64,000 nt of DNA from Asterochloris sp. CNOR1 (Eukaryota > Chlorophyta > Trebouxiophyceae > Trebouxiales > Trebouxiaceae), in the NCBI GenBank assembly GCA_963969365.1, contig OZ017756.1:930001-994000 (forward strand). Direction: 5' to 3'. Position 1 is the stretch's first letter, and every line of letters begins with the position of its first letter. The notes under the pieces are model-generated. The model was not told the DNA's origin and did not search any database. It worked only from the letters and a program-made list of their open reading frames with translations. Positions 9,701 through 62,264 of this stretch are shown here, piece after piece. Position numbers and translations under genes: made by a program.

Positions 9701-12700
9701 TTGTCAACAAGTATTACGGTTCATCAGCTTGCTGCATGCCAGCCAAGGGCACAAGCACATGAAGGGGCGACCCGGGCTGCCTTTTGCTTGCTGGGCAGTA
9801 TGCACTGTCATTGCAGTCGCTCAGCTGCATGCTGTTCAGTGTACCACAGCTTGGAAGGCCATAAATGTCACAACCTGTTGTCACGCAGGACTCGGATGAC
9901 AGCAGCGATGACTCCATTCCCAGCGTGCAAGTGACAGGCACCTCCAAGCGTGCTGGCACCCCCAGGCAGGTGCGCTGCAGCAGGGCAGTGTACCTGCTTG
10001 CAAATGGGTGCAGCCGCTGTCAGTCAAGAGGCACAGACTGGATAGCTCTGCATGCAGTGCCTGCTCTGGCCTCCCCAATTTCTGTGGCCATGCCTGAATG
10101 CATGCACCATGGGCCTGTGTTTGCTGCTATGCAGTAGCAAGGCGCCCTGCCTGGCCTGTGCAGCTTGATCTCGGACCCTGACATGCGCATCAGCTCTGCT
10201 GAGTGCCTACCCTCTGGCAACCAGGTTGCCGCTCTTCTTGTGTGTGAAGATGCGGGCCCCTGTCCTGTGTCAGCAGCCAGGACCTCCCAGCTCTGCATAC
10301 TGCCTCCCCTCTGGTCTCAGGCTTGCAGCTGCCTGTACGCCTGCAGATGCAGTGGGCCAGGCGCTCGCGCCCTGGGGTGTCAGGAATGCAGGCACGGCTG
10401 TGCTCACTGCCACCCATCTGGCCACTCAACCCTGTTGACTGTGTGTGCAGATGAAGTGTGCGAGCGCTTCCCCAGCCAGAGGACCCCCTCTCCCCTCTAA
10501 CCACTGTCACTCCTAGGGCCTGAACCTCAATGCTGTCTGCTGTGTCTGCAGATGATGCCGGTCAAGCGCTCGCGCCCCACGTCTCCAGTTTTCATTGACG
10601 CAGACGATCCCGAGGAGCAAGGGCGCCCTGCTGCGCCTGCCGAGCCGGAGGCGTACGAGGGCTCGCACGAGTGCCCCATCTGCAAGGAGGCAACTGTGGC
10701 GGCGCACAGCTTTGTGCCCTGCGGCCACTGCTTCTGTGGGGAGTGCATCGGCGACTGGCTGACGCGGAAGACCACGTGCCCAGAGTGCAGGTGGGCCCCT
10801 GCACCTGCTGGCCCTTTGGCAGCTGCTTGTGTCCACCAAAACACGCTGCACTGTTCTTCTTCTTCAGCCCCCTAGCTTGTGGTGGTGTGCTCAAGCTTGT
10901 GGTGTTGTCTGCCGGGTCCTACCCTCCCCACACTGGGATGCGGTCTGCCTGAGGCGGGGAGATTGCCGGGCCATGCCTTAGCTTAGTGCTGCCCACTGTT
11001 CCTTGCGGCATCATGTGTGGGAGAGTCTGAAATGTCAAGCACCTTCAGGTCCTGCTCCAAGATCAGGCTTTGTGTGGTGCTTCATCACAAGCTTCACCCA
11101 CGGCTGCAGGGTCCAGGCGGCGCCCTGCACTCCATGGACTCCATGCTGTGTCATCCACAGTTGTGCCTTTCAGACACCCTGTTGTTGAGCATCATGTTGT
11201 ACCTCAGGACTCAGGAGCGCAGCACACATGGTCACCCGTGTGCTCACAAGGATGCTGTGCTTCCTGCAGGGTCGAGGCGCCGCATGTGCCAATGTGCAAG
11301 ACAGCGCTAGACAGTGTGCTGCATGTCAGGCAGCCTCCTAAGCTGCAGGGTTGGGCAGAGACTCTGCTTAGGCTGCACCTGGCAGAGACCAGGCCATTGC
11401 AGGGTACAGCGGCGCATGTGCCCGCACACAATGTGGCACTGGCCAAGCACTGCATGGGTTGTTGGCAGTGGGCTGTGTGCTGTGCGAAGCTGTCGCACAA
11501 TGCCTGCAGCAGCATGAGTCAATGCGCAACAGGCTGCTGTTCCGCCTGCAGGGTGAAGGCAGCGCACGTGCCCACGCGCAATCGGGCGCTGGACGATGTG
11601 CTGAACCGGGAGGAGGCTCGAATGCCGGCAGAGGACTTGGTGGTGCGCCGGGTGCGGTGGCAGCAGTGGCAGGCAAAGGAGAAGACCATAACCCAGGGGA
11701 TGGAGCGCGCCCTCAACCTCCAACAAAGTTTGGGGGGCCCTGCAGGTGAGTGTGGGTGATGTTTTGCGTGGTAGCCTGGGCAGTCTGTGCAGGCTGGGAC
11801 TGCAGAGCTGCACGCCCTCAAAGCCCCGCCATGGCCCCTCTGGCAGCCCTGCAGGGAGAGACTGATAAATTCAGCTTGGGCAGGCTCTTTCCTGCTATGC
11901 AGAGCAGACCTTGGAGTGCCTATGCCAGACAGCCCTGTCTTGGAACCTAACCTCATCACAAGATGTCTGATCTTGGGGCATGAGGTCCAGGGGGTGGATG
12001 GTGGTTGTGCACGGCACTCTGCAGCTTGTGGTGGCTTGGTCGGTGCAGGGCTGCAGGTTGTTCAGCGGTCCTGCAGATGGGTGGTGCAGGCCGCCTGCGC
12101 CTTGGGCTGCAGAGGAGCGACGTGGACATCATGCCCAGGCCTGGGTAATAGCACTGCCCATGCACTGAAGAAACTCAACCCGGCTGCTGTGTTTGTTGTC
12201 TCTAGAGCAACTAATCAATCCGCATGAGCTCCACGCCTTGATGATGATGATCTTTGTCCAACAGCTATCTTCCCTGTCCCTGTTGGTTTCCAGTTCCCCT
12301 CCCAGGTGGGCCATGCCACACGCTCTGCTGTGCATGCTGTCCCGTCCGCAATGCTCATGCCTGTCCTTGGCAGAGGTGGCTCTCCCCTCACAGGCTGGCA
12401 GTGCACACCCCTTCATGCCATTATTGCTGCCTGCCTTCACTCTGCTGGCTCCTGACACATTGCACCTCATCACAGGGTCATATACATTGCCTGAGCATTT
12501 CCTCTTGAACGGGAAAGGGCTGTGCGGGCACTTCTTGTGATATGCCCAGAACGGACTGAGCAAGGACAAGCAAGGACTGCACAACTGGCTGCATCATGCA
12601 TGTGCTGGCAGCTGAAAGCTTGATTCTCCCTGCCCACAGGCCTCATTCGTGGACTGGGGATGCCTACTGACCTGGCCTGGGGCATGGCCTTGGGCAACCC

Positions 12701-12974
12701 CAGTCTGCATCAGCTCAGACCGGGGCCAGCTCTGCCAAGGCCATTCAACGCCTGGGACCAGGCCATGCATGGCCATGTGGCGGCTGGCCCATTGGCACCA
12801 GGCAACAGGGGCATGGGGTCCCCCTACGGGAGCCTGCAGGCCACTGTGAATGCCCAGATGGCGGCGCAGCAGGGAGCCAGGCGGGCCGCGCATCGAGCCA
12901 GGGGGCAGGTGCCCGCAGCGCCCCCTCCTCTCCCTGCAGGCCCACCCCCTCCCCCACCAGTCCCCGTTAGGTGA
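6785..12974 (+). CDS. FHA and RING-finger E3 ubiquitin ligase, CHFR/RNF8/Dma-like (974 aa, 7 exons)
   Basis: Exons 6785-7197, 7373-7986, 8281-9329, 9889-9969, 10552-10790, 11552-11745 and 12640-12974; all phases close. An N-terminal forkhead-associated domain (about residues 35-160) shows LTVGR, LLSRSHATL and HSTNGCYVN, the phosphothreonine-binding signature, ending with NPLVFRVSGV. A long Ala/Gln- then Pro/Gln-rich linker follows (about 160-720). A C3HC4 RING finger lies at about 760-798 (CPIC, CGHCFCGEC, CPEC). After it come a basic helix and a polyproline C-terminus. FHA plus RING in one chain is typical of mitotic or DNA-damage checkpoint ligases (CHFR, RNF8, fungal Dma1). The linker is unusually long, and the PAR-binding zinc finger of animal CHFR is not seen. 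Substrates are unknown. Confidence 0.87.
10341..10551 (+). repeat. Decayed tandem copies of the RING-exon acceptor junction inside intron 4
   Basis: The true acceptor and exon start (CTGCAG at 10546-10551, then ATGATG and GCGCTCGCGCCC) is preceded by a close copy at 10341-10373 (CTGCAGATG followed by GCGCTCGCGCCC) and a second, more diverged one at 10445-10480 (TGCAGATGAAG followed by GAGCGCTTCCCC). Spacing is about 100 bp each. See the findings. Confidence 0.75.
11043..11551 (+). repeat. Four decayed copies of the exon-6 acceptor junction in intron 5
   Basis: CTGCAGGGT-type junction copies begin near 11104, 11264, 11343 and 11397, before the true one at 11546. The copies at 11264 and 11397 keep the GGCGC-CATGTGCC core, and the 11264 copy also keeps the GCGCTAGACAGTGTGCTG stretch matching the exon (GCGCTGGACGATGTGCTG). 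Confidence 0.8.
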
Positions 12975-14235
12975 GAGCTGGGTGCATTTTGCAGGGTGTC
13001 GCTTCAGGTGTGTGGCTGCAGCAAACCCTTATGTGGCTGCAGCGCCGCCCCCATCCTCAACCGTCCTTGCTGCAGTGTCTTGTTTGAGGCGTGTAGCTGG
13101 AGCTTGATCCCATCCTGAAAGACCCTGCTTAGCGTCATTGGCCATGGCGTTCACCCCCACCAGTTACTGTCACAGGTCAAAGGCAACAGTGTTGCTTGCT
13201 TGGTCACGTAGACACACTTCATCCAGCCTGAAGCAGCTGGTCGCTGCTTTTGGAAAGCTTGGTGCACAAGGTTTCTCCTTGCTTCTGAAGGTTGTTGCCG
13301 CGCCCTCTCATGCCGTGCAGCTGAGTTTGATGTGTTTCGCAGAGACACCGCTGTTCACACCACATGCTATGCTGCTCCAGCAGTGCTGTGCCTTTCTGCA
13401 GCCTCTCAGCGACCACAGCTGCCAACTGGACGTGCTTCGTCTGCCAATCAACTTCACGCAGTCTGCAGACCCGTATTGCCTGCAACATGTGAGCTGATTG
13501 TTGAACAGGCTTGGTCTGGAAGCGCCATTATTGTGATGCTTTGTGAACGTTTGGTGAGCAGGCAGGATGTTGTGCAGCATCTGCACTGCATTGGGCCCTG
13601 TCATATGTCACGTTGTTTATATATCATTCAGTCCAGCTGTGCTCAGTCTAACTGCTGTTTGCAGGTCCAATGGCATCACTGACATGATGCATCTGGGCTG
13701 TGTACCTCAGGTGGGCTTGACCATCAACCAGTGCATTTGGGCTAATGATCTGCCATGACAACAGTGACGTCATGCTTCGCATGCTCCTAGTACAGTGCCA
13801 TCCTGCAGAGCCCAGCTGCTCACCACCCTGGTGTGGCACAGAGGTGGCCTGCCTCTGACCAGCAAAAGTGAGCAGCAACGGCTTACCAGTGCTGATCATC
13901 TGCTGCAGCGCATCTGGCAGCAGTGTGGGCAGAACAACACTATTGTGGGAGGGCTGAGCAGGCTTCCGCCTGAGGACCTGGTGAGGCTGTGGCAGGGTGC
14001 AAGATGATGCCATACAGGCTGGGATCAATGAAAGTGCTGCTGCCTATTCAAAAGTATAGCTAGCTGGGTGCTCCACATGCATAACTATGCATGCAGGTGT
14101 CAATTCAGGCGAGTCTGGCAGGTGTATCATCCAGAGGAAGTAGGCGAGGCTGAGAGCTCAATCAACGCATGAAGAGACAGTGTGTCACCAGTGTTCATTG
14201 CAGACAGTGCATTTTCAAAAGTTGGAATGGCAGAA
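12975..14235. other. 1.26-kb region without a firm gene model
   Basis: This lies between the FHA-RING stop and the OHP1 stop, which converge. It contains one open frame at 13144-13497 and splice-like segments at 13667-13710 and 13911-13980 that do not join in phase. It probably holds 3' UTRs, perhaps with a small gene. Confidence 0.4.
13144..13497 (+). CDS. Hypothetical small ORF (117 aa), doubtful
   Basis: The open frame starts MAFTPTSYCHRSKATV and is Leu/Gln/Cys-rich. A possible GTGAGC donor sits just before its stop. A following segment with good splice borders (13667-13710) would terminate at once in phase 0. No recognisable domain. In a GC-rich genome an open frame of this length can arise by chance. 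Confidence 0.22.
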   Translation: MAFTPTSYCHRSKATVLLAWSRRHTSSSLKQLVAAFGKLGAQGFSLLLKVVAAPSHAVQLSLMCFAETPLFTPHAMLLQQCCAFLQPLSDHSCQLDVLRLPINFTQSADPYCLQHVS

Positions 14236-15424: not shown

Positions 15425-17743
15425 ATGACAGACTACAGCAGATGGATTCTAGGAACAAGTGCCTGCCTGACGCTATGGTGGTTCGGGTTCACACCCCAGT
15501 GGCTGGTCCTCAAGATCTGGCGCAGCATTGCAGCGGTGCTCGGCATCTTTCTGGGTCCTGTCGTGGCTCTGCTGCGGGGCTCGCCTGATGAGGAGGAGCT
15601 GCTCACCCTGAAGGCTTCCATGCGCAATGTCACCAGGGACTATGACCAGGTGGGCAGCCTTACCCCCAGGTGCAATTTTGTGCTTCCTCAGGTTTTTAAG
15701 GTTACAATGTCACCATGGACAGATGAGCTGGCCATTGTGTGCTAGCTGGGCAGTTTCTGTTTCCTGGGAGGCACATCTGAGGCCTGCAGGTCGCAGGTGC
15801 AGTGTGGGACAGGGCCCAGCAAATGTGTAACTGCTGCCTCATCTTGGTTGTGATGGGCACTCCCTATCATTGCCGCCGCAGGCCGGCAATGGGGCAGTGT
15901 GGGGCAGTCCCCATCAGCCCGCCATGTCCTGTCCAGTCAGAGGGCCTCCATTGCCCATGAGTGCAGAAACATGATATGTGTGCCTGTCCTGCCTGCTGCT
16001 GACCAATACAATCCAGATGCACTTGATTGGCAAGATTGGCACAACCACTGCTCATAGCTGGCCATCTTTGTGGCTGGAGGGTGACATTTTGCTAGGAAGG
16101 AGTGTCTTTGCTGCCTGCAGCTGGCCACTCTTGTCTGCAGCTCCTTCACTGCACAGTGCAGCTGGCCACCACTGTCCAGGAGCATGTCATTGTGGCACAC
16201 AAGCATGTGCTCACTGCCCCGTGGCGGTGGCACTGTAGCAGCAAGTCTGACACGCATGTGCTCACTGCCCTGCAGCTGGCCGCCAGCGTCCACAGCTTGT
16301 CATTGTGGCAGCAAGCCTGACAAGTACGAGCCCTCCTTGTAGCTACCAGTTCCAAGACTTCGCTGCCCTGCAGCTGACAACTATGGTTCAGCCACCTCAC
16401 TGTGGCAGCAGGCCTGACAAGCATGTGTTGCCACCCTGCAGCTGGCCACCATCGTCCAGGAGTACTTCACTGTGAGGGACCCGGCCTCGGAGCAACGCTT
16501 CAGGGACTTCCTGGCTGCCAAGGCCGCCAGGTGGGGGCCAATGCACCGCTCGACAGCATCTGGATCCTGCCTGTCGCCTGCCGCTGACCGGCTTGGCGAG
16601 GGCCACTGCCCTATCTGTTGTCTGCCAACTTCTCAGGAGCCGTTGGCCTCCCATTACTGTCTGGCCAGCTTAGGCATAGCCTTTGGCTTGCCTGTTGCAG
16701 GCGTCCTGCTTGATGGCTTGATGGCAGTGCCCATGCCCAGCAATTCCATGGTCAAGCTTGTAGCTATTCCATATGGGATTGGCACCAATATGCATGACAG
16801 GGAGTGCAACTCAGCAGCTGCACCATGCAACCCCACGCTGCGCACCTGGGCTGCCGGACTCACACATGAGCTGTGCACGGTCTGCCACCAGCTGCCTTGT
16901 TCACCACAAGGGCAGCTGCTGTGTTGTGGCGTGTAGCATCTGCCGTGCTAGTGAGCAGTAGCCTCAGTGTGACAGTGCTACACCAGGCTGGTCAGCCTCA
17001 CAGTGTGCTGCAGGAGCCATGCTGGACTGGAGCTGGTACTTGATTGGCTCCTCACTGCCTTTAAAATCCTTACACCCTTCCTGGTGAGCCTGGGTGTTGC
17101 ACTGCACCCTTTGAGCATGCAGCACATGCTACTAGCAGCTCACATGGCAGAAAGTCGGCCGCAGACCAGCACACAGTTGTCTACTTGACAAGTACAGCCC
17201 CTGTTGGTACACAGATTCAGTGGATATGTTCATGCACTTGCTGGGCCACTTGCATGCAGCATGAAGTGGTTGCACAAGCCAGGGCCAGTGCATGCTGCCC
17301 ATGACTTGTCTGCTGGCACCACCGGTGCATCTGTCAGACCTGTCTGTCTGCTGCCGAAGCTGAGGCAGGGCCCTGGGTGCGCCCATTGCTGCCAGCAGAC
17401 TGCCGTCTGAGATGTTGTCCTGCCTGCCTGCAGATCTTTCTGATTGCTGTGAAGTCTTTCAGCAGCCAGGCAGCAAACACCTCGTCTGAGCGGCCAGTTC
17501 CATCGCAGCGCCTCACCCGAGCAGCCCTGACGGCCGCGTCTGAGCAGGACATGACCTCAGAGCAGTTCACCAAAGCCCCTGCAGTCTCTGGGCAGCAGGT
17601 GCACCACCTCAGAGCGCAGGGCGGCGTCAGGTGTGCTGCTGTGCAGACTTGACTGTCCCCATCACTTTGCTGGCTTACTTTGTATGTGCATCTGCAGGAA
17701 GCCTGTCAGATCCCTCAGCAAGAGCAACCTTTCCGCAGGATGA
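15425..17743 (+). CDS. Membrane protein with three hydrophobic segments, unknown (208 aa, 5 exons)
   Basis: Exons 15425-15649, 16442-16530, 17014-17083, 17434-17630 and 17698-17743 join with matching phases (0, 2, 0, 2). The start is ATGACAGACTACAGC. Hydrophobic segments lie at about residues 7-25 (GTSACLTLWWFGF), 28-52 (an IWRSIAAVLGIFLGP helix) and 110-140 (LELVLDWLLTAFKILTPFL running into IFLIAVKSF across a junction). Between them is a soluble helical stretch with QEYFTVRDPASEQRFRDFL. The C-terminal third is polar and Ser/Gln-rich. I do not recognise the family. Continuity of a transmembrane helix across the exon 3/4 junction supports the model. Confidence 0.68.
16115..16441 (+). repeat. 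Tandem junction copies before exon 2 of the membrane-protein gene
   Basis: Copies of CTGCAGCTGGCCACC with following GTCCAGGAG- and TCACTGTG-like words occur near 16115, 16157, 16270 and 16369, before the real junction at 16436. A second shared block (GCAGCAAGCCTGACAAGCAT type) alternates with it near 16240, 16310 and 16405, so the unit is roughly 60-110 bp. Confidence 0.8.
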
Positions 17744-18874: not shown

Positions 18875-21800
18875 ATGCCGTTCAAAGCCTTCAAGGAGAA
18901 GGTGCGAGATCTGGCACGGGATCGTTGATGCATCGCACCTGGGCCAAGTCGGGTAACTTTGCTTCACACCCGAGGCCAGGCCCCCAGGAGCAGGCTCAGG
19001 CCTCCTTTAGAACACTTGCTGTGGTGTTGTTGGGGGCCAGGGCTGCCTCAGCAAGCTTTTCTAGGGCATTCTGTCAGCTCTCCATGTTTGGCGCTGGAGA
19101 GCCGTGCTGGAGACTGGTTGGCCTAGCATGGGCCTGCGAGACCAGCAGCATGCCACTCATGGTCTAGGCGAGAACACAGCTGGCGATGGGGAGTGTGGCG
19201 ATGGGTGGTGCGGAGCACATCACGTGCGTTCATTTCCCCTTCCACAAAGCCTTGCAAGCCTGCCTGGTTGCCCTGCCTGCAGACTGCCCAGAAGTTTGGC
19301 AGCAAGAAGACGTTCACAGCAACCTTGAGCAACCGGACGGAGACAACGTACAAGGAGGCAGAGGCCTTCTCTGTGGAGCTCAAGCATGCTCTGAAGCAGA
19401 TCAGGGCCCTGCAGACAGCGACAGCAGGTGTGTGGAGACCAGGAGATACGACAGCACAGCCTGGGTGCTCTGATGTTGCCCAACAGATACCATCTGTGCG
19501 CTCGTGGTGTTTGTCAAGGCCTTGGGGCAGAGGGTGGCTGCTTAATGCACCCGGCCTACCATGCCTCAGCTGACCTGAGCTGACCTGCGTGGCTGCCATG
19601 TAGAGTGCTGACAGCGTCGTACAGGCTTCCACGCCCTGTTCTGCAGGCATGCTGTCGGCCACTGCTAAGACCCTGTCCACCCCCCTGCCACGCGTGTACG
19701 ACAAGGACGTCCGCACTGGCCAGGCTGTGGCCACTTTTGAGAGCCTGAGCGAGCGGGAGCGTCTGGCGCTGACTGAGGAGGAGATCAACCTGAGGGATCT
19801 GGAGGCCATCAAGCACCACACCGTGAGTGTCAAGGGCATGGGGGAGCAGCGGGATAGCAGGTGCCAGGGGTATCCCTTTGACACAGAGGTGGCTCAGCTT
19901 GAGGGATCTGGATGCTATCATCCCACACAGTGAGTGGCAGGGCATAGGGTAAAACATGGCAAGTACCTCGGGGCCTGAGTTCAACCTTGAGGACAACATC
20001 AACCTGAAGGACCTGGATTCATCAAGTAAGACCACCACACAGTAGTTGCCAGGGTTGGTGTGCGTCAGGAGAGCTGGGGTGCCTCATGGCATCATGATGC
20101 TTGTGCTGGCCATCGTCACCACACAGCGATTGTAGGGCTATGCTTTGGACATGCATGTTGCCTTTGAGCATATATCACAAGGGGCAGGGAGTGGTGGAAC
20201 ATGGGTTGCTTTGGCACCAAGTTGCCATAGGCTGTGCTCAAAAGTGGAGTGCTGAACTCGCAGTGCTGCTGTGCTGGCTGGTATACATTTGCTGATTTGC
20301 ACATCATGGACACAAGGTGACTTGTCAGCAGCAGATTGCACCCTCCACCACGCAGTCCCAAGCTGCCAAAATGAGGTTTGGGCATCGATAGCTGAGGTCA
20401 CAGCAGCCCATTTTGGCCTGCCCCTCCTGTCTGCATGGTGGCTGCAGGCCTCACTGTTAAGCTCCTTGTGCCACTTGTCCTGCCTGCAGCTGAGCCGTAC
20501 GGAGATACCTGTGCTGCCAGGTCGCTCAGTGAATGCTGGGCCTTATTGTGCTCTTCTCTGTCCATCCTGGTTCTGCACATGCTGAGCTCACTCATCCTGC
20601 CTGTAGACCTGCTGCATGGAGGTGGGCATTGTGCGCCCTGCAGTGGCCAAATGCTGCACTGGCTTGAACGTCATTCTCTCATCCCTGCGTCTCCTGCCTG
20701 CTCAACGTCTGCATGGAGGTGCCTGTGGCGCCAGATTGCAGTGTTGGTGCTGGCCCTTAGCGCCACGCTCTGCACATGCTGTGTTGACCCTCTCCACTAT
20801 GCCTGCAGTGTATGCCTGCAGTCAAGCCGTATGGACATGGATGTGCTGCGCTCATGAAGCAGTGGCTGATGGCTGCACACGCCGACTGACCCATTTGAAG
20901 ATCCCTATACCTCCTGCATGCAGACCAGCCGCATGGAGATGGATGTCCTGCGCCCCATGGAGCAGTGGCTGAGGCTGTACAAGACCTTCCCCATGAAGCT
21001 GCAGCGCATCGAGAAGGAGCGCCTGACCTACGACCACGAGAGGCGGCTGTACAACAAGGTAGCAAGCCAAGTGCGCGCCCCAGTAGGACCTCCGCCTCCT
21101 GCACAGAGACCTCCACAGCTGGCAATGTGGCTGGCTTTTGTTGCAGTAAGGGCGTTTGTCGCTGGGTCTAGGCACCTAGACAGCTGGTTGAGGCAACTGT
21201 GCAAGCCGGCAAGCCAAGCTGGCTGGCTGGCTTCAGGTGGGACCACAAGCTTGCTTACCTGGCGCAGGCATCTCATCTGGAATGTATGTATTAAGATAGG
21301 TAATGGGCAATGGTATGAAGTATGCCTTCTGCAGTGGCACTGATATGCTTGCCAACAGGCATCAACTTGGGCTCCTGGTGCATGTCTGCATTTGCAGCAA
21401 CATTCTGTGTGCGCTGCACACACTAAGCAGGATCATCTGCCAGATAGACTGTGCAGTCTCCTGTTTGCAAGGGACTTGCTGAGCAGTCCTCCTGCAAGGC
21501 TCTGCTGCATGGTGCACTGGAAAAGTTGGATGCATCGTCTTTTTGTCTGAAGCAGGGCTATGATCCAGTTGGCCCGGAGGTTGACCCCAACCTTGTCATT
21601 TCTGCAGGTGGAGGTGAAGAAGCTGAGGAGAGCGCAGGGCGAGAATCCTAGCCCCAAGATTGAGGCAGAGATGAAGCACCGTCAGATCTCCATGGATGGT
21701 GAGCAGGCCTTCTAGTACAGCCCTGTGCTGCAGTCAAGTAACATACTCAGAGCTGTTTCAAACAGCCAATTTGAGCTTCTCACCTTCCCGTTCTTCTGTG

Positions 21801-23884
21801 CTGCAGCCAAGCAGAAGTCCTTTGAAGAGTATGAGCAGGATGTGTGGCAGGAGCTGAGCCAGCTGGTGAAGGATGCCAAATCACTGAGGACTTACCTGGT
21901 GAGAGGCAGAAACCCTGCGTGACAGCCTCATGTGATTCACCTGCTTGACAGGTCTGGGTCGTGTACCTTGCCTGGCAACTGAGAGGAGTCCAGGCATCAG
22001 CAAGGAGAGCTGCGCCTCTACCAACATGTCACTCACGTCACACAGGCACCAGGCAGCACCTGTGTCTCTCAAGCAGGAGTCTGCTTACCACAGCTATGCT
22101 GTTGAATCATGAGGGAGGTTTTGACAGCAAAGCTTTGGGCTGTCATGGATGTGCAGGTGCAAATGGCTCAACTGGAAAGTCCTGACAGCAATGTTGACAC
22201 CTGGCTCACCCAGCGCTATAGGCAAGGCGCTTGGCTGCAAAATCCTGCCACCGCAGGTGGTGGCCATCAGGGTTCAGCAGCGCACAAAGTCCTTTGCAGC
22301 TCGACTTCCCCTTTGCTGACGGCCGTCATCCCTGTGCAGGTGGCGGCCATGAGGGTGCAGGAGCAGGCGTTCAGCAGCGTGACTGTGGGCGAGACAGAGA
22401 AGGTGGACCTGACCGATGCCCACAAGGCTCCTGTCACTGCCAATGGCCTGGCTGCTGGCGCTAGCACCAGCGGGCTGCCTACCCCCATCAGCGAGGACAC
22501 CAGCCGCAGCCATGTTGCGCATGGCGCCACAGGTGGCCATTGCCTTTGGTCCTTCTCAATGAGCCCCTTTACACAAGCAGTGTACAACTCGGCGGGGTGG
22601 GCGGAGCATGGGCGTGGGTGGGGGGAGATGCGGGACGGGAGACATAGCAACTTCTACTGATCTCTTGCACCCCACCTCCCCACACTGCACTGCTGTGTGC
22701 TACCAAACATATTCATTCTGCTCTGCAGCATGCACATTCCCTTCTCTGTCATCTCCTGCTCACACAGTGCAAGGTGTAATTGCAGAGGGTCGGTTCGGCA
22801 CCTTGATCAGCCACACCCCCCTGACTTCCAACGCACCACACGCCCTGGCCTCGCACGCTGACCCCTCTCCCAGCGAGATCTCAGCCAGTGAGGTGGAGAC
22901 CCACGCCCCCATCATGCGCAAGGAGCCCCCCCAGGCTGAGGAGGCTGTTCGCTCCAGCGGCGCCGGCAGTGTGACCCAGCCCAGCACCCCCGTGCAGACC
23001 TCCAGGTGGGCACAGCTGTGTGTTATTGGAAAGTACGTTGGCATCACTCAGACCTACACATTTGTGTTCAGCATGTTTCGGCACCTTGCCTGGGCAGGGC
23101 TGGCAGGCACAGTGCTTGGTGGCAAGACGGCCCAGTGCTGGGCTGTGTCGCCATATGGCCGCCCACTACTGACTGCAGCACATCAGGGCGGCCTGCTGCC
23201 ACTGGGTGGGGCCAGCTGGCTGAGCCAGGCATGGCAGGCAATGCCAGACAGCGGCCATGACAACAGGCTGCTATCGCCGCATGGGCTCAACAACATCCTG
23301 AAGAATGCAAACAACACAGCAACTGCTTCTGGGCTGATCAAGAGGCTGCTACCCATAGTCACATGTGGCAAGGCAGAGCAGCTGCTGCAATGCCGGCTTG
23401 GGTGTGCTGCAGGGCTGAGGAGAACCACCACCAGGAGAGGCCCAACTTGGACATCCCCCCTCAGCTCTCGCTGGAGGAGGAGTTGCCCTCAGGTGGGGGT
23501 CCCCTTCATCTGGGTGCCTTCATGTTGCAGGCAGTGCCCATCATACAGTTTGGGTTTGCTGTCTGGTCGAGCTTGCAGGGCCAATCATCCGCGGCTGCCT
23601 CTGCTTGTTTGCAGGCTGCGCTGTATCATCAGGCAGCATTGTGCACTTGTAATTGTCATCTGTGTTTGACAGGCATCTTGCTGTCTTTTGGCCCCTAATG
23701 ACAAGGTTGAGGCGCCAGATTGCCACAAGCAAGATTCGGCACTGATGCAGCCAACAGCAGGGTCTCACTTGCTGCTCCTTGTTCCATGCCTGCAGTGCCC
23801 CAGACTCCAGTGACACAGAACCCTGAGAAGGTTGAGGAGAAGAAGAACAGCTTCATGGGCAGGCTGCTTGGCGTGGGCGCATAG
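18875..23884 (+). CDS. BAR-domain-like membrane-remodelling protein (415 aa, 10 exons)
   Basis: Exons 18875-18901, 19283-19427, 19647-19822, 20924-21058, 21608-21698, 21807-21898, 22340-22532, 22786-23005, 23413-23492 and 23796-23884; phases close to 416 codons. An alternative acceptor at 22774 would add four codons. The first ~220 residues are long charged helices in the order expected of a BAR fold: MPFKAFKEK, a KEAEAFSVELKHALKQIRAL helix, then EMDVLRPMEQWLRLYKTF, an ERLTYDHERRLYNK helix, and SFEEYEQDVWQELSQLVKDA. The C-terminal half is disordered and ends in NSFMGRLLGVGA. BAR proteins dimerise into curved modules that bind and bend membranes in trafficking. The assignment rests on the pattern of helices and the PMEQWL-type core, not on an exact motif. 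Confidence 0.68.
19886..20060 (+). repeat. Two decayed copies of the exon-3 donor junction in the BAR-gene intron 3
   Basis: The end of exon 3 (ACCTGAGGGATCTGGAGG, then CACCACACC and GTGAGTG) is echoed at 19886-19950 (GAGGGATCTGGATG, CACACAGTGAGTGGC) and at 19988-20055 (ATCAACCTGAAGGACCTGGA, CCACCACACAGT). Spacing is about 105 bp. Confidence 0.8.
20484..20923 (+). repeat. Four decayed copies of the exon-4 acceptor junction in the same intron
   Basis: The real junction (ATGCAG at 20918-20923 then ACCAGCCGCATGGAGATGGA) is preceded by copies near 20484, 20600, 20700 and 20816. The copy at 20816 extends over about 60 bp and keeps GCAGTGGCTGA. Spacing is about 100-120 bp. Confidence 0.85.
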
Positions 23885-24269
23885 GGCGCCACTATATCCA
23901 CACTTGGAACAAACAAAAACCGCTACGCAGCGATCTCTGCGCCCAGCAGCCAGCTGTGACACACGGTCACAATGTCATGATTCCGACCACTCGCCACCCC
24001 TCTTGATCCGTGGGCTCCCACAGCCCACACACGCTTCTTGGCCACACCGCCCTCCTGCCAGCAAGCCTTCACAGCACATAGGCACCTCTTCCTAATGACA
24101 GCCAGGTAGCTGACAATGAACAAACATTTGATTTGAGCTCCTGTTTAAGTGATCTCTTTCTTGCTTCCAGGTTTACTGGTCCTGATCTCTGCAGTTGTTT
24201 GAGTCTTATGTTGATGTAATCCCTGCCGCTCTGCGCTGTGCTCATGTGTGACCTAGAGCACTCAGCATC
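23885..24269. other. Intergenic region between BAR-like and DRC8-like genes
   Basis: About 385 bp between two plus-strand genes: 3' UTR of the first and promoter of the second. No further coding signal was seen. Confidence 0.4.
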
Positions 24270-25825
24270 ATGCCGGCACCTGTGGATGCCGCTACGCATG
24301 AAGATGCAAAACGAATTGCCAGGGAGAGCTTCCTGGTCTTCGAGCACAAAGAAGGCTCCCGGCTTGTAGATGAGAAGTAAGCAAACAGCCATACCTCGAC
24401 AGCATGCTGCAAGATGCCCTGCTCCTGCTGCTGAGGGCTGCGCTGCTGCAGAGAAATTCCCACTGTGGTGCGGTCCATGGGCATCAACCCAAGCAATACT
24501 CAGGTGGCGCAAATTCTGCAGCAGCTGAAGAGCGGGCAGGAGGATGAAAGCCTCAACCTCATTCCAGTGGAGCGCTTTGAGGAGGTGGGCCCTGGAAGCA
24601 CAGCCACGCGTGTTGGCAGGCCTGGTCAAAGTAGTGGTGAAGTCACAGCCCCAGCAGGCAGCACGTGGCCCGCCATCAGGGGACCCTGCTCGGCCTACTA
24701 AAGTTGAAGGCAGGTTTTGAATGACACTGGGGCTATGATCAGTGCACCTGCTGCTGAGCCCCGTGCAGGGTCCAGGTGCAGGTAGCACTGGGGCTGCCAT
24801 GAGGCTCCTGCTGCCCAATCTGACTTAACATGGCGGCCCATCTGGCATGATGGCTGCTGTCATGCCTCAACCTGTCCCAAATGCAAGCAGCATTGGCCTG
24901 CTGCCAGGCCTGGCATAGACTCAGTGTGTTTGATTGATGTGGGCAGGATCAGGCTGTCATCACAGTTCTTGCTGTCAGACAGGCTTGGGACAGCAAGCAA
25001 ATGCAGAGTTGACAGGGTTGTGACCCACCAGTGCAGTTGCCGCCAGGACCTGCAAGTGCTGACATGCCAGTGGTGTCTCCCCAGTTGCAGCTGCACTCCT
25101 TGCGCCACCTCACATGCAGCTCCTGAGATGCCTGCATCACCTTCACATGCAGCTGCTGGGACTATGCATTGCCTGACTTGCAGGTGATCACAACATATGC
25201 TCTCGACATGAAGAACGAGCTGATCAGAGACGACTACCACAAGCTGCTGAGGGCTTTCAGGGCCTTCGACCCCGAGGGCAAGAACTTCTTGGAGGCAGAG
25301 ACCCTGAGGGGTATTGTTATGAGCTGTGGGGAGGCCTTCAGCAGCCAGGAGGCCGGCAACATGTTAGCGTGAGGGGCGGAGCATGTTCCAGGGGGCCTGG
25401 GGAGCACTGTGATGGCTTGCAGGAGGCCGGCAACGTGTGCATGGCTGCACATGTGTGTAGGGTTGGGGCATGAGAGAGGCAGGCAACCCAAAGTGGTACT
25501 TGATGTGCATGCCTGCTGCTGGCCTGGCACTTGCTGCAGGGAGCTGCGGAATGTTGGTGTGTGTGAAGCTGTAATGCACTGAAGGCTCGCTTTGGCAAGT
25601 GCGCTTTGATGCATGCTGCGCCAGGCACACGACATGTGCACAACACCTCCTCTCCTCCTCCTTGTGTCTGTTTGGGAAGCAATGAGCCTAGACGTACAAC
25701 ATTCCCTCCTAATTGCCATCAACTGGCCTCTGCTGTGCTGCAGGGCTTGCACAGATGCAACCACCGGCAGAGTATACTATGAGGACCTCTGCTTTGCACT
25801 GGCTACAGACGGCCGCAAAATCTGA
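24270..25825 (+). CDS. DRC8: EF-hand protein, dynein regulatory complex subunit 8-like (EFCAB2/FAP200; 4 exons)
   Basis: Exons 24270-24376, 24452-24584, 25184-25368 and 25744-25825 join in phase (2, 0, 2), giving about 168 residues. The protein shows two calmodulin-type EF-hand pairs in degenerate form: ARESFLVFEHKEGSRLVDEK with EIPTVVRSMGINPSNTQV, then LLRAFRAFDPEGKNFLEAE with LRGIVMSCGEAFSSQEAGNM and ending VYYEDLCFALATDG. The spacing and words (VVRSMG, LLRAF..D, GE.FS..E) match EFCAB2/DRC8, a subunit of the nexin-dynein regulatory complex of motile cilia. Several calcium-ligand positions are substituted, so calcium binding is doubtful. Calmodulin or centrin is less likely given these substitutions. 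Presence implies that a flagellate stage persists. Confidence 0.8.
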
Positions 25826-28029: not shown

Positions 28030-28316
28030 CTGCAGGCATAGAGTGGTGACCTGCGACCACTGGCAGGTGGCAGCACAGTGTGGGACAGTGGCAGCCAGAT
28101 GCCCACATGAGTGTGCAGGTACTGCTGGTGGACCGCAAGGGGCCACAGTCAGCAGTACACACAGGCAGAGCCGCACTTCCGGGCATTTCCAGCCAAAGCT
28201 CCCAGCACCAGCCGATGAGAGTGTGCGTGTAGTGAACAGTCATTCTCCGCGGTGTCCAACACAGAGCAGACAGCCTTCAGCCCCGCACCTTTTCCATCAA
28301 CTTGGCACTCACGCAG
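28030..28316. other. Region between LEA stop and the unresolved minus gene
   Basis: It holds a minus-strand open segment with an ALAGN-type helix (about 28180-28310) that could be an early exon of the downstream minus gene, plus a copy of the junction near 28029. Not resolved. Confidence 0.3.
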
Positions 28317-47302: not shown

Positions 47303-49665
47303 ATGCACGCCAAAGTATCTGGTCAAGCTAAGACATCTTGGCTTCATCATAGCCCTGCATGCAGATGCAACACAAGGTCAAGTCGCTTCATGATACAGGA
47401 CAGCGGGCGCTCCGCGGTAGGCCGCAAGCCTGTGGCAGCCACACAGGGGACTGAGCAGACAGAGGCTGGACCACATGAAATCACGAGAGAGCCTGAGAGG
47501 AAAAGCCTGGCAGGCTCAAAGCGCAGAAGGAAGGCAGACTCCACGGACTTCATTGCCTCTGGGCTGACACGGCGCTTTGGGTGAGCAGTGCTGAAGCCTG
47601 CTATGTCTCTGCACCTTGGAGCCAACTTGCAGAGCATGCAAGCCTGTCTGGGCAGGCCGCCCCCTGTGAGACTGCAGTCGCTTCCATTACGTGACTCTGA
47701 CATGGCTCTGCTGGCCGAGGAATCCCACCTGTGTGGTTTGCTTGGCTTTTGAAGCTTATCGGTGCGCAGTCAACACCTCAGTGCAGCTTCTGACTTGTAA
47801 AGGCTTGTAGACCTGCCCTTGTCTGATCATCACGCTCACAGCGTGATCCTGACCTGTTGAGGAGTGCTGCACTGTGCAATTTCGGGGCAGACCGGGCCAT
47901 CGTGCGTGTCCAAGCTTTGGCAACATCTCAGAATTTCGGATGCGGGTGCTGCTGGCCTGTGCAGGTTGCTTGGAGGCCTGGCTTGGGTGGGCGTCTTGAC
48001 CTTTGGCGTGGTCTCTGAGCAGGTCAAGACCCGGCTGGAGCAGGCACAGGAGGAAAAGGGTGGGAAGGTGACTTGCTGGGCTTTGTAAGACAAGCAAGTG
48101 CGTTCTATGCCAGAAGCGCTGCCTGGCAGCGCTGCCTGGCAGCAATTAGAACTTACATGTTCTTAGGTTTCAACTCATGTTGTGAGCCTCAAAGTCAGGA
48201 AACTCATGGCACGAGATTAGTTTCAGACAGCATGCCCACTTGCTTGCAGGAGGTAACAGATGGCAAAGAGGTCACCCTGCCCAGCGGGGTCCGCTTCACC
48301 GATGAAAAGATTGGAGGCGGTGCTCCCACTCAGCTGGGCTACCTTGTAATCCTAGACTATAAGTAGGTGCGTGCCTGGCCGCCCGCGCTGGAACGCTCTG
48401 CTGTCAGCTCTGATGCCCCGATTGCTGATGTCGTGTTCTTTTGAGCTGCCCAGAGCAAATGGACAGTTTGCAGCCTGTGCGCATTGCGCCGTGGGAAAGT
48501 TTGGTGCATCGAAGTTGCACAAAGCTCCAGACAGCTGCCTGCACGACGGCATTCCCACCATAACAAGTGACACAAGAGGCAAGCAGCACCAGTTGGCGCT
48601 TACTGAGGCGTCACACATGCAGGGCCTATGCCAACGGAGAGTTGTTTCAGGACACAAAGAAGCGGGGCAAGCCAATTGTGTTCATCCTGGGAGCCAGGCC
48701 ACTCACTGGAGGGCTGTGCCCGGGCGTCGAGGAAGCATTGAAGTCCATGCGGGCAGGTGTGCGGAACTGCCTGATTCCGACTAGGCTGTGATATGCCAGC
48801 TAGGGCATGCCGTCAGACAGTTGCATGGCTGTGTCCCAGTTTGAGGCATGCCATGAGGGCAGGTGAACAGCTGCCTGGCAATGCAACACTGCTTGCCGGC
48901 TGGGGTTGCCAGGATCTCATGCCTGCTGGATAGTGCCACCACTGTGCATGCTGAGGCTGCCACCCTGCGCGCATGTGCTGGCTGCCAACACGCCTGAGGG
49001 CGCCATGCAGCCTGCTGCCGGAATTGTCGGTGTCTGTGCATCATGTTCATGCCACACGGCCAGGCACTTGCATGACGGTAGGTAGAGAGCTGCATAGCCC
49101 CAGCTCTGCTAAAGTGCAGGCCATATGGCAGGGCAGGTGGGCAGCTGCATGGCGCCAGCTCTGGCCACCTGCTGAGGGCCACATGGCCTGATCTGCTTGA
49201 GACACTTGGCCTGCTCCTGTCACAAGACAGATAGGTGTAAGGCTACAGCTCCACACATCAGCATGTTGATGCCTTCATTCTGCCTGACTGGTGGTTCCCG
49301 TCGTCTTGCTGTACAGTGCCCTGGGAAGCTTTCATGGTGAAGGAAGTAAAGGCCAGGCCATCATCTCCTGCACCATTACAGGATCGTTGATACACTCCGC
49401 TTATGTTGTGCAGGAGGGAAGCGCACAGTTGTGGTGCCCCCATCTGAAGGCTTTGGTGACAACGGGGTTACTCTGAAGCCCACTGAGCATGTCCCAGACA
49501 AGCAAGGTGCCGATCTGCGTGCTGCTTACCTGGGATGACCTCCGCTGTGGTGTGTCCAGAGCTCAAAACTTCTGATCAGTGAACTGCAATGCAGGCGAAG
49601 TGGCGCCTGGAGCGACACTGACATATGAGCTAGAGCTTGTCAGAGTTTCCATTCCACCATCATAA
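47303..49665 (+). CDS. FKBP17: FKBP17-type thylakoid-lumen peptidyl-prolyl isomerase (6 exons)
   Basis: Exons 47303-47580, 47965-48067, 48250-48362, 48623-48756, 49414-49506 and 49595-49665; phases 2, 0, 2, 1, 1 close (about 263 aa). The N-terminus is basic and Ser/Arg-rich, as in a chloroplast transit peptide. It is followed by the plant FKBP17 words DSTDFIASGLTRRFG and GGLAWVGVLTFGVVSEQVKT (a hydrophobic, possibly lumen-targeting segment), then LPSGVRF, YLVILDYKAYANGELFQDT, and the C-terminal half LCPGVEEALKSMRAGGKRTV, VVPPSEGFGDNG, and LTYELELVRVSIPPS. Lumenal FKBPs catalyse proline isomerisation or act as chaperones for thylakoid proteins. Several aromatic active-site residues of canonical FKBP12 are not conserved, as in the plant subfamily, so activity may be low. 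Confidence 0.93.
48757..49413 (+). repeat. Decayed copies of the exon-4 donor junction in FKBP17 intron 4
   Basis: The real junction (CCATGCGGGCAG then GTGTGCGGAACTGCCTG) is echoed at about 48849-48880 (CCATGAGGGCAGGTGAACAG, CTGCCTGGC) and about 49120-49152 (GGCAGGGCAGGTGGGCAGCT, GCATGGC). Confidence 0.65.
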
Positions 49666-50216: not shown

Positions 50217-53200
50217 ATGCCTTGCAGTGCTCGCTTGCATCCTCCTGCTCAAGGCATCACCAGCATCCCTGAACCTGCAGGCAATGCTGCCGGCCTGCCT
50301 GAGGCTCGCCGCTATCTGGAGCAGGAGTGCAAGCAGTACGACAAGGAGCATGGGTGAGGAGGCTGCTTGTCACCTGCTTCCCTGCCACAGCGCTGGATGC
50401 TGATTACATTGGCCCTCATCTGCTGCACCCTTGTCCACACTGCGGCATGATCGACCCCACGATGCTGTCAATGCTGCCTGTGAGCAGTGTGCTTCACGCC
50501 GGAGTTGCTGCAGCAGCAGATGTGTCAGTCCTGTCATGCCTGCCAGGCCCTTTGTTTCAGGGGCCAGTTGCTCGAACCAAGCTGCAGAGGTTCCTGGTGC
50601 GCCACTAGCTCAACCTGTTCACCCGGCAGCTGGGGTCAAGCAGCGTGGAAGCAGCAAGCAATGCCTGACCGCCTGCAGGTGTCTGGCAGTCCATGGCTGC
50701 AAAGCCTGCTGCTGGGATCAAGCGGCAGCCCAGGCACTGCCCCTGCATGCCTGCAGGTTCTTGGTGGACCACTGGCTCAGGAGCCTGCTGCTGGAGTCAA
50801 GCAGCGTGTCAGCAGAGGACATGCTGTCCCCAGCGAGCGTGCCCCGCCTGCCATCCTGGTTTGTGGCGCACAAGACGGGCCTGCCACGCCTGCCTTTCGT
50901 GTTTGTGGTCAACAATGAGCTCAGGCTGCACCCCTCCCTGGAGGGCATGGAGGCCATCACCCCCGGCAAGGACCAGCTGAACACCATAGGTGCGCCTGTG
51001 GCTGTGACTCTCAGGCTGAAACTCCCAGCAGGCACAGCATAGTCTCTCTGGCAGGGGTGCGCGTGTGTCTTGCGACGCTCGCTCCAGCACGCACCCCGAC
51101 GACAGGGTGCGCCAGCACAAGCACCTGATGTGAAGCATGCAGCTTGCAGCAGGGGCCACCACACTCTTGCAGCCTGGCGCAGTGGCACATGCTTCGCTGC
51201 CTGCTCTGGGCACCGTGCAGCTCTACACCTGCACTGAGGATGCTTTCGGCAGGCCTGTGCCTGGCAGCAGGTGGCACAAGGTCCGGACCAAAGAGCACAG
51301 CCGAGTCATCCAGCATCTGCACATTGGAGTCACTGCACGTGGGGTCTGTCCTGACGCAGGCAGTCCATCTCAACTTTGCCAGTAACCATCAACTGCCTGC
51401 TTGGGGTGTGCAGGGGATCAGCTTGTTCATGCTTACAAGAGCTCTTTAAGGACATGCAATGCAACCTTGCTGTGACCCCCTTCTGTGCAGGGATGGCTGG
51501 GGAGTACATTGTGCCCATCATTCGGGAGCTGCTGACAATGATGAAGCTGCCCAACATGGTGTTGGCAGGTGGGTGCTAGCACAGCCTTGTTGCTGGCAGC
51601 GCACTGCCCTAAGAGCATGTGCAGATGCTGCTGCGAGGTGGGATTGACTTGACACATTTTGACATGCCTGGGGCCCTCCAGATTCCCTGCCCTTCAATCA
51701 TGTGGCTTGGAAAGCCTTGTGCGGTGCCCTGTATGCATCTTCAACCTGTGGGCCTGCATGCCACACACACATATTCTGCCGGTCACTGGTTGCATGCGGT
51801 CCCTTCTCTTTGCTCAAGCACCTGAATGCCACCCTGTGCATGTGGTGGGCTCCGCTGAGGTCCTGATTGCTGCCAGTGCTGCATGCAGTCCTTGCATTGA
51901 TCTGACCCCAGGCTATGCCCTGTGCAGTGAATGCTTTTGATGAACCCATGCTGGCCCACCTTGGATCCTCCTGGCCCTTCTTTGGCTTCTGCAATGTGGA
52001 GCAGCGAGAGAATAGTGCTCTCATGCCAGCCAACTTGAAATCTGCTGGTGAGCCTGGGCAAGGTGCTGTACATGTGCTGGGCAAAGCCTTCCCTGTACCT
52101 AGGCAGTGACCTCATGCCGGCTCCTTTGGAACCTGCTGGCAAGCTTGAGCATGGTTTCTCAGTCTGCATGCCCGTCGTCTGGCAGTGCTCCTGCGGTTAT
52201 TGTGTTTGACAGCAACTGGTGGGCCTAGATGTGTCCAGGTGGAAGACTAGCTCCTGTCAAGCCTGCCTGCATGGGGTGCCCTGCTCACATTTTGAGCAGC
52301 ATGCCAGAGTCATCTTTCAGTGCTCCTGCGGTGCGCCTGGAGGCTCATGGATGTCCGCAGGACACATCTGTGCACAGCAAGGCAGTCCTGGGGCTTCACA
52401 GCACACATGCCTGCTGCTGACCTGTGGGTTCCTTTGCACCAGCACACCCCTTGTTCGCAGGTCACACCCTGCTCCAGGCTTGCCGTCACGACTCCGATGC
52501 TGTGCAACCACAAGACGCTGCAGTCCCTCTGTTCAGATCACACCCTGCTCCCTGCTGCAGTTTTTGCAGGGAACCGCTCCCACTGTCGTGCGGGGCCGGG
52601 GGACCCTCGCAAGCCCCAGGCGCTGTGGCTGGGCACAGACTCAGGCTGGGGCAATGGGCGGCGCCGGGCCGTCCTCCTGGCCAGCAGGAAGTACCCAGAA
52701 CTGCTGGTGAGTTTCTCTGACTGCATTAGCTCGATATGAGAAGGAGCAGCTCCTGCAGCTGCACACGTCGGTCAATTGAGTGCAGCCAAGCACCTGAGAC
52801 TCAGCAGTGAGGCACTGCTGGAAGAGGCCACCTCACTGTGGGCACAGCCTACCCGCAGTGGGCCAGCATGTCGTTCACCTGGCAGTGATAGATCCTGGCT
52901 CCTCCCAGTCTGCCTGCAGGAGGCCAGCACAGCGAAAAGACAGCTTACACAAAACATCCTGCCTGCCTGCAGTGCGCTGACATCACTGAGGTGGCCTTGC
53001 CATCATAGAGCAGGCCCTGCCTAGTTGCAGGATGCTGGCGTCACCTGAACAAAGAGCTGACATCGTGCACCTGCTCGCCTTGCAGATGGCCGGCATCACC
53101 AAGAAAAATAATTATCTCGTTAGCCAGACTGAGTCAAGGCTCATCGACAGCTTCATGCATGAGCCGCTACCTTACACAGAGCAGATAGACAAACACCAAG

Positions 53201-59100: not shown

Positions 59101-59152
59101 CATCCCCAAGAAAAAGGAGGAGCCTGCGGGCAAGCGCATCGAGCTGCAGTAG
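56134..59152 (+). CDS. Small heat-shock protein, HSP20/alpha-crystallin family (181 aa, 9 exons)
   Basis: Exons 56134-56224, 56542-56620, 57043-57102, 57410-57440, 57874-57904, 58056-58102, 58436-58472, 58649-58699 and 59034-59152; phases close to 182 codons. After a Phe/Leu/Gly-rich N-terminal arm (MALFGDFFADPLLSPFGDFL) comes the alpha-crystallin domain: DLIELPDKYELKADIPG, then SKDKINVVIDGDVLRISVDR, VFHRNERPKG with FLTRTTRMPKHADLDQ, and AKYDAGVLILNIPKKK. These are ATP-independent holdases that oligomerise and protect unfolding proteins. Two 31-nt exons, a 37-nt exon and a GC donor (CAG then GCAAGC after IPGQ) are unusual, because HSP20 genes generally have few or no introns. The last junction inserts about ten residues (PSDMMTWPVLQ) before AKYDAG, so a slightly different acceptor (59067) is possible. 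Confidence 0.93.
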
Positions 59153-60556: not shown

Positions 60557-62264
60557 TCAGGGCCGCTGCAGATGGGTACGGGGCTCCCTTACGTTGTACA
60601 AGTGCTGCAGCTGCACTTTCTGGGTAAGCTGCAGCCCTGCATGATGCTGTGGCTTGGTCTCAATGGTCATGGCAGCTTCAAGTGGTGCCCACGAGGATGA
60701 TCGGCACCTGCCTGGACCGGCATGCTGCTGCTGACAAAATAGGCAGGGCAGGCTGATCTGGTGCCCTGCTGCCCATAGAGCTGTGCTGCTGCTGACAGGC
60801 TGAGGCAGGCAGGGCAGGCAGGCTAACCTTTGTGGAGTCCTGCACTCTCTCCAGCGCAGTGGCTACCTCCTTGATGAGCTCATCAGCCTCCAAGCGCAGC
60901 TCAGCGGCGTTCAGGGTGAGCCTGGTGGCCTCTGCTGCCAGGCTACTCTTCACCGCTTTCACCCTTCTCCTGCAGCAGCATCAGAAAGACACCTTCACAA
61001 GATGCCTCTGCAAATAAGTGCAAACGCCATGCAAGCCTCTGGTGGCAGGGAGGCGCTGTTGCTGCCAGCCTTGCCCCGCAGCATCCGTTGATGGGTGTGC
61101 TTGCCCCATGCAGAACATGCAGGCTCCTCTCTCCGTTGCCCAAGAATCGCCCCTCCTGCAGCGCAGAGCAGAGAAGGCAGCTGCCTGTGCAGCTCTTCAA
61201 GTCTCTACAAAGCCCCAGCGAGCTGGATGTGCAGCTGTTAGCACGTGGCACAGCAATGCAGCCAGCAATGCCGCAGCGCTTGGCAGCATGACTGCTACCT
61301 CATGCCGACGCTCTCAATCATCATCTCGCTGCTCTCCTCTGTGTTGGCCATCTCGGCTGACTGCTGCAGACGCCCTGCTCTCTGCCGCAGCTGCTCTCCA
61401 CGCACCAGAGATGATGACGCAGGTGTTCTGGCACGCCCGGCGCCTGTGCCTGGGCACGTCCCCTTGACTGGACACTGCCGCAGACGCCCTGCTCTCTGCC
61501 GCAGCTGCTTTCCACTCACCAGAGATGATGACACAGGTCCTGTGGCCTCCAACGCCGTAACTTGTTAGCAGCTCCTCCAGACAGTGCCAGCTCGCTGATG
61601 CTGGTACCCCTGAGTCAACATTGGTCCTGGTCTGCTCAAGCTGCAGCTCCCACTCTGGAATCCTCTCACAGCGCCGCATGACAGCTGTAACAGTGGCTCA
61701 GACTCCTTGACAGTTGTCCTGGCGTCTGCAGATCAGCTGAGGGCTGCTGCTCACGCTTTTCATCCTGACAGTGCAGGCGAGGTGTTGAAACAGACAGCAA
61801 GATACAGAGGGGAAAGAAAGAGTTCCATTTTAGCACTGTTCTGTGGCCAATTTCATGGTGGCCAGCAGCTCCAGATTCTGCTGGCACAAATCCTTGCTCT
61901 CCTGTTGCAGCTCAGTGCCTTGGTCCTCTGGGGCTCTGCAACAGGGGCTTATGGAGCAGCCTAGCGAAACCTGGTCAGGCTGCAGGCCAGCCAATGGAGA
62001 GGGCTGCAGCTGGAGGCACTGGTCACCGGCTGCTGTCCCCTGCCTGCTTTGCTCCTGGCTACCCTGCGCAACATAGCCACATGTCCTGCCCAGAACAGAC
62101 ATGTACCTCACCACATCAACTGAGACTGCTGTCCACACTTGCTTCTTAGTTGCCCTCAGCTGCCTGAGGGTGGGCTCAATGAAGAGCTTGAAAGGTGCAT
62201 CTAGCGTAATGTGTACCATGCCCAGGCCCAGCATGATATTGGCCATTGGCCTTGAGCCTCTCAT
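60557..62264 (-). CDS. Coiled-coil protein, unknown (about 299 aa, 7 exons)
   Basis: Minus-strand exons 61837-62264, 61712-61764, 61520-61684, 61299-61374, 60828-60969, 60593-60619 and 60557-60565; phases 2, 1, 1, 2, 0, 0 close to 300 codons. The first exon could be split by an in-frame intron (61980-62111), giving 255 aa. The N-terminus (MANIMLGLGMVHITL) is mildly hydrophobic. Heptad-like helices follow (GTELQQESKDLCQQNLELL; WELQLEQTRTNVDS; ESSEMMIESVGMRRRVK; AELRLEADELIKEVATALE continuing RVQDSTKKVQLQHLYN). The last coding exon is only 9 nt (Arg-Pro-stop). No family is recognised; a structural or adaptor role is a guess. Confidence 0.62.
61367..61594 (-). repeat. 114-bp tandem duplication across an exon/intron/exon junction
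   Basis: Plus-strand text CAGACGCCCTGCTCTCTGCC GCAGCTGCT starts at 61367 and again at 61481, with nearly identical sequence through ACCAGAGATGATGAC in both. On the transcript each copy carries exon end (GTCATCATCTCTG), a 31-nt GTG...GCAG segment and exon start (GGCGTCTGC). Confidence 0.9.

Follow-up and report, generated by a model that had tools for sequence, protein, structure and literature searches.

We analyzed a single 64 kb window of DNA from Asterochloris sp. CNOR1 (contig OZ017756.1, positions 930,001 to 994,000; window positions are used throughout), in which introns of several protein-coding genes contain old copies of the edges of neighboring exons. A first-pass annotation of the window had proposed that introns lengthen by a process of tandem duplication acting at splice junctions. 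We find that decayed direct copies of exon edges occupy the adjacent intron far above chance. Our preferred explanation, to which we give a probability of roughly 0.74, is that local duplication is frequent, that it strikes introns more or less at random, and that selection spares the exons.

Gene models and catalog of junction copies

The window is eukaryotic, with a GC content of 54-68% in 2-kb steps and numerous GT-AG introns. The closest solved structure to the product of the DRC8-like gene at 24270-25825 is dynein regulatory complex protein 8 (PDB 8glv chain EZ, E = 7.9e-42), which we take to come from an algal (Chlamydomonas) axoneme; together with the base composition, this points to a green alga. 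Pfam matches were obtained for the FKBP gene, the RING gene and the family-90 glycosyltransferase (GT90) gene. The labels BAR, PAP, DUR3, LMB, sHSP and FHA were assigned by eye, and a Pfam search of the BAR, PAP, DUR3 and LMB proteins gave no match. Nor did an Rfam scan of the window at gathering thresholds. Protein scans of viral contigs and genome contigs turned up no relative.

Nine plus-strand genes were modelled by hand, comprising 67 exons and the 57 introns used below. Two automatic predictors, a home-made exon finder based on codon usage and a gene finder that chains exons, performed poorly or over-predicted; they served as guides only and were replaced by the hand models. The latter were checked for GT-AG boundaries and phase, and their joined frames are free of stops except in the small-heat-shock-like model. 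There the exon 3-4 link does not close in frame and was dropped; the other 6 introns of this model were kept, the frame of its later exons being unchecked as a whole. The junction test also leaves out every minus-strand gene, exons 1 and 2 of the transporter-like model, and three stretches in which no introns were modelled (256-5643, 6761-9330 and 28.3-36.6 kb). The models named by coordinate below are as follows.

9889..13980 (+): RING-finger gene, 6 exons, both gene ends open; stop-free joined frame, GT-AG introns, Pfam RING. Hand-modelled exons: 9889-9969, 10552-10790, 11552-11745, 12640-12970, 13665-13710, 13909-13980
15425..17743 (+): LMB-labelled gene, 5 exons, hand model
18875..23884 (+): BAR-labelled gene, 10 exons, hand model
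47390-49665 (+): FKBP gene, identified by Pfam

The copies of exon edges that we recognized in the introns of the hand models are these.

10328-10372 and 10425-10468 (+): two acceptor/exon-start copies in intron 9970-10551, which precede the used acceptor 10552 by ~204 and 101 bp
11241-11321 and 11398-11442, with a weaker copy at 11101-11123 (+): acceptor/exon-start copies in RING-gene intron 10791-11551; used acceptor 11552
13012..13066 (+): copy, at offset 103, of the exon end near 12915-12963, in RING-gene intron 12971-13664
15705..15731 (+): weak copy matching the end of the preceding exon, in LMB intron 1, offset 80, score 14; fails p<0.01 with dinucleotide shuffles
16103-16151, 16152-16194, 16235-16292, 16305-16344 and 16366-16391 (+): LMB acceptor-copy array in intron 15650-16441; used acceptor 16442
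15938-15962 and 15992-16029 (+): weaker members of the same array
19879-19949, 19988-20026 and, weak, 20090-20133 (+): BAR donor-side copies of exon end 19770-19822, in intron 19823-20923
20478-20517, 20595-20638, 20681-20726 and 20813-20878 (+): four BAR acceptor-side copies at ~100 bp spacing; used acceptor 20924
22253..22281 (+): BAR acceptor-side copy in intron 21899-22339, offset 83; used acceptor 22340
25420..25438 (+): 19-bp copy (18/19) of exon end 25346-25364 in intron 25369-25743 of the DRC8-like gene
42517..42570 (+): doubtful copy of exon end 42197-42249 in PAP intron 42261-42704, offset ~320, score 14; fails p<0.01 against dinucleotide shuffles
50546-50585, 50588-50654 and 50664-50726 (+): GT90-gene acceptor-side copies in intron 50354-50756; used acceptor 50757
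52105..52155 (+): donor-side copy of 52014-52064 in intron 52048-52569, offset 91

They are unevenly distributed among the genes, since the transporter-like gene (so called by eye) at 37525-41202 (+), with 12 modelled introns, has no junction copy at p<0.05.

Exon edges recur in the adjacent introns

Each probe was an exon-only 70-mer compared with its own adjacent intron, the intron being trimmed by 10 bases at the donor end and by 25 at the acceptor end. The null was formed by 300 random segments of other introns. Against this null, 12 of 114 exon edges matched at p<0.01, 6/57 on the acceptor side and 6/57 on the donor side, and all 12 sit at the floor of that null. The first-pass annotation had described at least nine introns of eight genes on both strands; the existence of the copies is confirmed, and our tally, taken on the plus strand, is 10 introns in 6 genes, or 8 introns in 5 genes at a score of at least 15. 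At p<0.01 the controls gave 2/114 for reverse complements and 2/34 for the far ends of the same exons. With dinucleotide shuffles as the null, 11/114 edges reached p<0.01: the weak donor cases in LMB intron 1 and PAP intron 2 were lost and the acceptor of BAR intron 9 was gained. Matches to adjacent exons were far more frequent than matches to non-adjacent ones: 8/114 adjacent comparisons against 1/6160 non-adjacent at a score of at least 17, and 9/114 against 10/6160 at a score of at least 15.

The repeats of the window are direct and local. We compared the window with itself at a score of at least 20, excluding 28300-32400, and found 28 direct repeats at <300 bp, 3 at 300-600 bp and 3 beyond 5 kb; the same comparison gave no inverted repeat at any distance. 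Exact 11-mer pairs, counted with 256-5643, 6761-9330 and 28300-33100 masked, tell the same story. Direct pairs exceed background ~5-10x at 20-120 bp and <2x at 120-300 bp; per 100 offsets they number 25 at 20-60 bp, 33 at 60-90, 43 at 90-120, 8 at 120-180 and 3.7-5.0 beyond 450 bp. Inverted pairs in the masked window do not increase at short spacing, with 2.5, 6.7 and 0 per 100 offsets at 20-60, 60-90 and 90-120 bp and ~6-8 far off.

Could GC-rich, low-complexity sequence match itself by chance? Composition gives this idea some footing: TGCAG, CTGCA and GCTGC are ~7-9x commoner than the mean 5-mer in the whole window (TGCAG occurs 461 times, the mean being 62). However, GCAGC-rich composition does not explain the set, because adjacent matches far exceed the shuffle, reverse-complement and non-adjacent controls, and the dependence on distance also speaks against chance. 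The same controls settle the low-complexity origin that the first-pass annotation had raised as a danger to its own proposal. We regard chance as a barely credible cause of the set, which these controls refute; single weak copies with a score of 14 or less may be due to chance.

Character and age of the copies

Relative to the exon, the copies carry mismatches at 80/321, 68/310 and 77/314 sites by codon position, the weak copies of the 12 cases being counted. Since mismatches are about even across codon positions, the copies are unlike constrained exons. Upstream copies were said to reproduce the acceptor together with the exon start, and they do: AG is retained in 12 of 15 acceptor copies. 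The corresponding statement for downstream copies holds for the exon ends. It does not hold for the donor in ungapped alignment, where GT stands at the expected place in 0/8 donor-side copies; gapped alignment finds a GT retained in 2/3 donor copies of the BAR-labelled gene.

Retention of AG invites the suggestion that the copies serve a function, as alternative 3' splice sites or as exons that are alternative or mutually exclusive. Two of the 12 AG-bearing acceptor copies (11270 and 50679) are indeed open and in frame into the exon. The other 10, however, meet a stop ahead of the exon or run out of frame, in keeping with the earlier remark that most copies lack an open frame, and the even spread of mismatches over codon positions also argues against function. 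For the set as a whole this explanation, which we consider highly unlikely, was rejected: there is no coding constraint and so few copies are open in frame.

The copies had also been described as polarized, the used acceptor being always the 3'-most and the used donor always the 5'-most. This is true, but only by definition, because otherwise the copy would not be intronic; hence polarity is no sign of a special process. In five aligned arrays, 12 of 17 copies resemble the used junction most, 4 resemble another copy more and 1 is tied. The majority follow from the constraint on the exon, while the remaining copies hint that blocks of more than one unit may have been duplicated. Are the farther copies older? 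Within arrays, similarity to the used junction is higher for the nearer copy when all 23 pairs are taken (p = 0.018), but leaving out three weak, distant copies removes the trend (p = 0.19 over 15 pairs). The nearest copy is less similar to the used junction than the second one in GT90 intron 1, RING-gene intron 2 and LMB intron 1. A serial ageing of copies, as on a conveyor, is only weakly supported.

Introns that bear copies are longer: the 10 introns span 375-1101 bp, whereas the median of the 47 others is 235 bp (p = 7e-5), a comparison to be read with the caveat that longer introns offer more space for any repeat. The offset of the farthest copy amounts to 15-73% of intron length in these introns, the doubtful PAP case included. 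Because the copies are direct, local, codon-even and found in longer introns, the part of the first-pass proposal that has introns lengthened by short local duplication, leaving exon fossils, is supported. Could the introns instead have arisen when segments of exons were duplicated in tandem? Intron gain by this route is recognized (PMC3443670), and a new intron of this origin is documented in potato (PMC4974935). Against intron gain here, the detected copy offsets leave 123-591 bp unaccounted for in each of the 10 introns, a remainder that may itself derive from very old copies; we hold intron gain to be a very remote prospect.

Placement of duplications and growth of introns

The first-pass annotation placed the process at the splice junctions themselves, and this part of it is not supported. 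Probes from intron interiors matched at p<0.01 in 26 of 249 cases, ~10%, which equals the junction rate (12/114); thus, among the 57 introns of the nine genes, junctions are not matched more often than interiors. The 30 pairs detected in the nine gene models divide into 15 exon-intron, 15 intron-intron and 0 exon-exon pairs. Random shifts of these pairs gave 11.0 +/- 3.1, 14.5 +/- 3.9 and 4.5 +/- 2.6, respectively, so that under random re-placement the exon-intron excess has P = 0.14 and the exon-exon deficit P = 0.018. At the level of clusters, 9 of 13 touch a junction where 7.3 are expected (P = 0.24). Even a mild exon-intron excess would need no special cause, because only one copy of such a pair decays and the pairs should be easier to detect. 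Two sets of repeats touch no modelled exon.

43018..43165 (+): three tandem ~50 bp copies within an intron
48856..49163 (+): local direct repeats within an FKBP-gene intron

A splice-junction-targeted process, driven for example by breaks or template switches that accompany transcription or the TGCAG acceptor motif, could copy exon edges serially and turn the old copies into intron. It would account for junction copies in 10/57 introns, for the higher similarity of nearer copies in the full set (p = 0.018), for the location of 17 of the 26 interior matches in introns with junction copies, for the apparent richness of introns in repeats relative to unannotated DNA, and for the abundance of TGCAG (461 against a 5-mer mean of 62). 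It is opposed by the equality of interior and junction rates, by the random-like placement of pairs and clusters (P = 0.14 and 0.24), by the loss of age order without the three weak copies (p = 0.19) and by the second copy being more similar than the nearest in 3 of 5 arrays. We consider targeting unlikely.

Several results do weigh against random duplication with selection sparing exons, and we set them out together. The 17 interior matches just mentioned leave 9 in four introns without junction copies, and because so many share introns with junction copies, the interior and junction rates cannot be treated as independent. The deficit of fully coding clusters, 0 seen against 0.77 expected, is not significant. 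Near repeats were more frequent in introns than in "unannotated" DNA, which surely contains unmodelled genes: without masking, 33/284 against 13/281 (p = 0.003) and, in a second probe phase, 36/289 against 8/280 (p = 1e-5). With exons masked the second phase still differed (20/226 against 8/268, p = 0.006), while the first did not (18/228 against 12/269, p = 0.13). Given this excess in introns, duplication may act unevenly along the DNA. Setting introns with junction copies against introns without them (26/88 against 7/196 probes in one phase) makes a circular argument, from which we draw nothing. Plain neutrality does not predict the keeping of AG in 12/15 copies alongside GT in 0/8 ungapped ones, a small sample. 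Finally, tandem repeats in minus-strand open regions at 28.3-32.5 kb indicate that some coding duplications are retained.

Random duplication followed by selection, the explanation we favor, would run as follows. Short direct duplications would be frequent, with units mostly of ~50-120 bp that adjoin head to tail or are separated by a few tens of bases. They would land anywhere, and those internal to exons would probably be purged by selection. Intronic duplications, or junction-spanning ones whose outer copy is still used, would be nearly neutral and would persist, decay and lengthen the intron. Junction-spanning events would stay legible longest because the exon remains near the ancestral sequence. 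Slippage during replication, or error-prone repair at staggered breaks, is the putative molecular source. The traits of short local duplication, direct orientation and short spacing, are present in the window, where interiors, junctions and unannotated DNA are all affected at unequal density. We conclude that random duplication and selection give the same polarized picture, and that tandem "acceptor arrays", which call for caution on this account, need no special machinery.

Two pairs may preserve the shape of the event. Units 20770-20879 and 20873-20981 form a nearly complete head-to-tail unit of 103 bp. The pair 61360-61432 and 61474-61546 is the best preserved outside the coding arrays, with sharp edges and a 41-bp unmatched spacer; most other copies are too old for edges. 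Head-to-tail and spaced shapes are both obtainable by slippage or by break repair, and the data do not choose between them.

How do these events compare with known ones? Pace et al. (2009, PMC2671141) report, for primates, local duplications that take in exons and splice sites. These vertebrate duplications, attributed to repair, resemble ours in being short, local and in many cases intronic, and in duplicating exons together with intron splice sites; two duplicated full exons tested there lacked constraint, as our copies are codon-even. They differ in having been detected by insertion into transposons, and in scale: proximal copies there are 162 bp on average, their donors lying up to 5 kb away, while our spacing is mostly <120 bp and our copies are old. 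Pairs within 50 bp were excluded in that study as tandem duplications of other origin. Schimmel et al. (2021, PMC8355091) describe small tandem duplications as the most common of the short insertions (<100 bp) in human DNA, and those arising at staggered breaks are, like ours, short and direct. That pathway, however, was shown in mammalian cells, and the units in our window commonly approach or surpass 100 bp. In potato, duplication of an intron end and exon start created a new intron (Ma et al. 2016, PMC4974935). The unit is of the same type as here, and the potato gene also carries an 83-bp intronic tandem duplication, but the potato duplication made a new intron whereas in our window an old intron seems just to have been lengthened. 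Duplicated regulatory sites in Drosophila (Nourmohammad and Laessig 2011, PMC3188502) offer a parallel in that old copies are legible through functional conservation; that work, however, concerns binding sites within ~50 bp rather than exon edges, and that study saw no such signal in yeast.

Among the papers listed in our literature searches, largely without subscription papers, none described a genome marked by serial copies of its splice junctions, and we met little on intron lengthening other than by transposon insertion. The type of event is thus known, and what stands out is its density within a 64 kb window, no other genome having been measured. Perhaps this lineage grows its introns mainly by short local duplication, with ~1/6 of introns (10/57) bearing readable exon-edge copies, introns more affected than intergenic DNA, farther copies older, and the whole a layered record of growth; we consider this broader idea rather doubtful. 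Because junction-spanning copies should stay readable longer than interior ones, they are a possible marker for the rate and age of intron growth.

Two further repeats lie on the minus strand.

34787..34981 (-): three tandem copies 68-84 bp apart in an unfinished minus-strand gene, starting near a possible GC donor
61360..61546 (-): repeat pair, possibly a donor copy, in an unconfirmed minus-strand gene; 66/73 identical, offset 114

The possible GC donor (CAG/GCGAGC) stands at ~34978 (-), about where the three-copy array starts, and that array looks intronic. Local duplication also seems to be retained in low-complexity coding sequence. Adjoining open regions at 28365-32527 (-) contain tandem repeats whose periods (66, 120 and 132 bp) are all divisible by three, and their predicted products are alanine/lysine-rich and LEA-like by eye, with Pfam hits below the curated cut-offs or no match. 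At 2695-2811, 7629-7795, 8366-8509 and 8991-9165, long open frames that look coding hold direct repeats in a decayed state, offset by 57-84 bp. A run of 26 G residues lies within an intron at 41996-42021.

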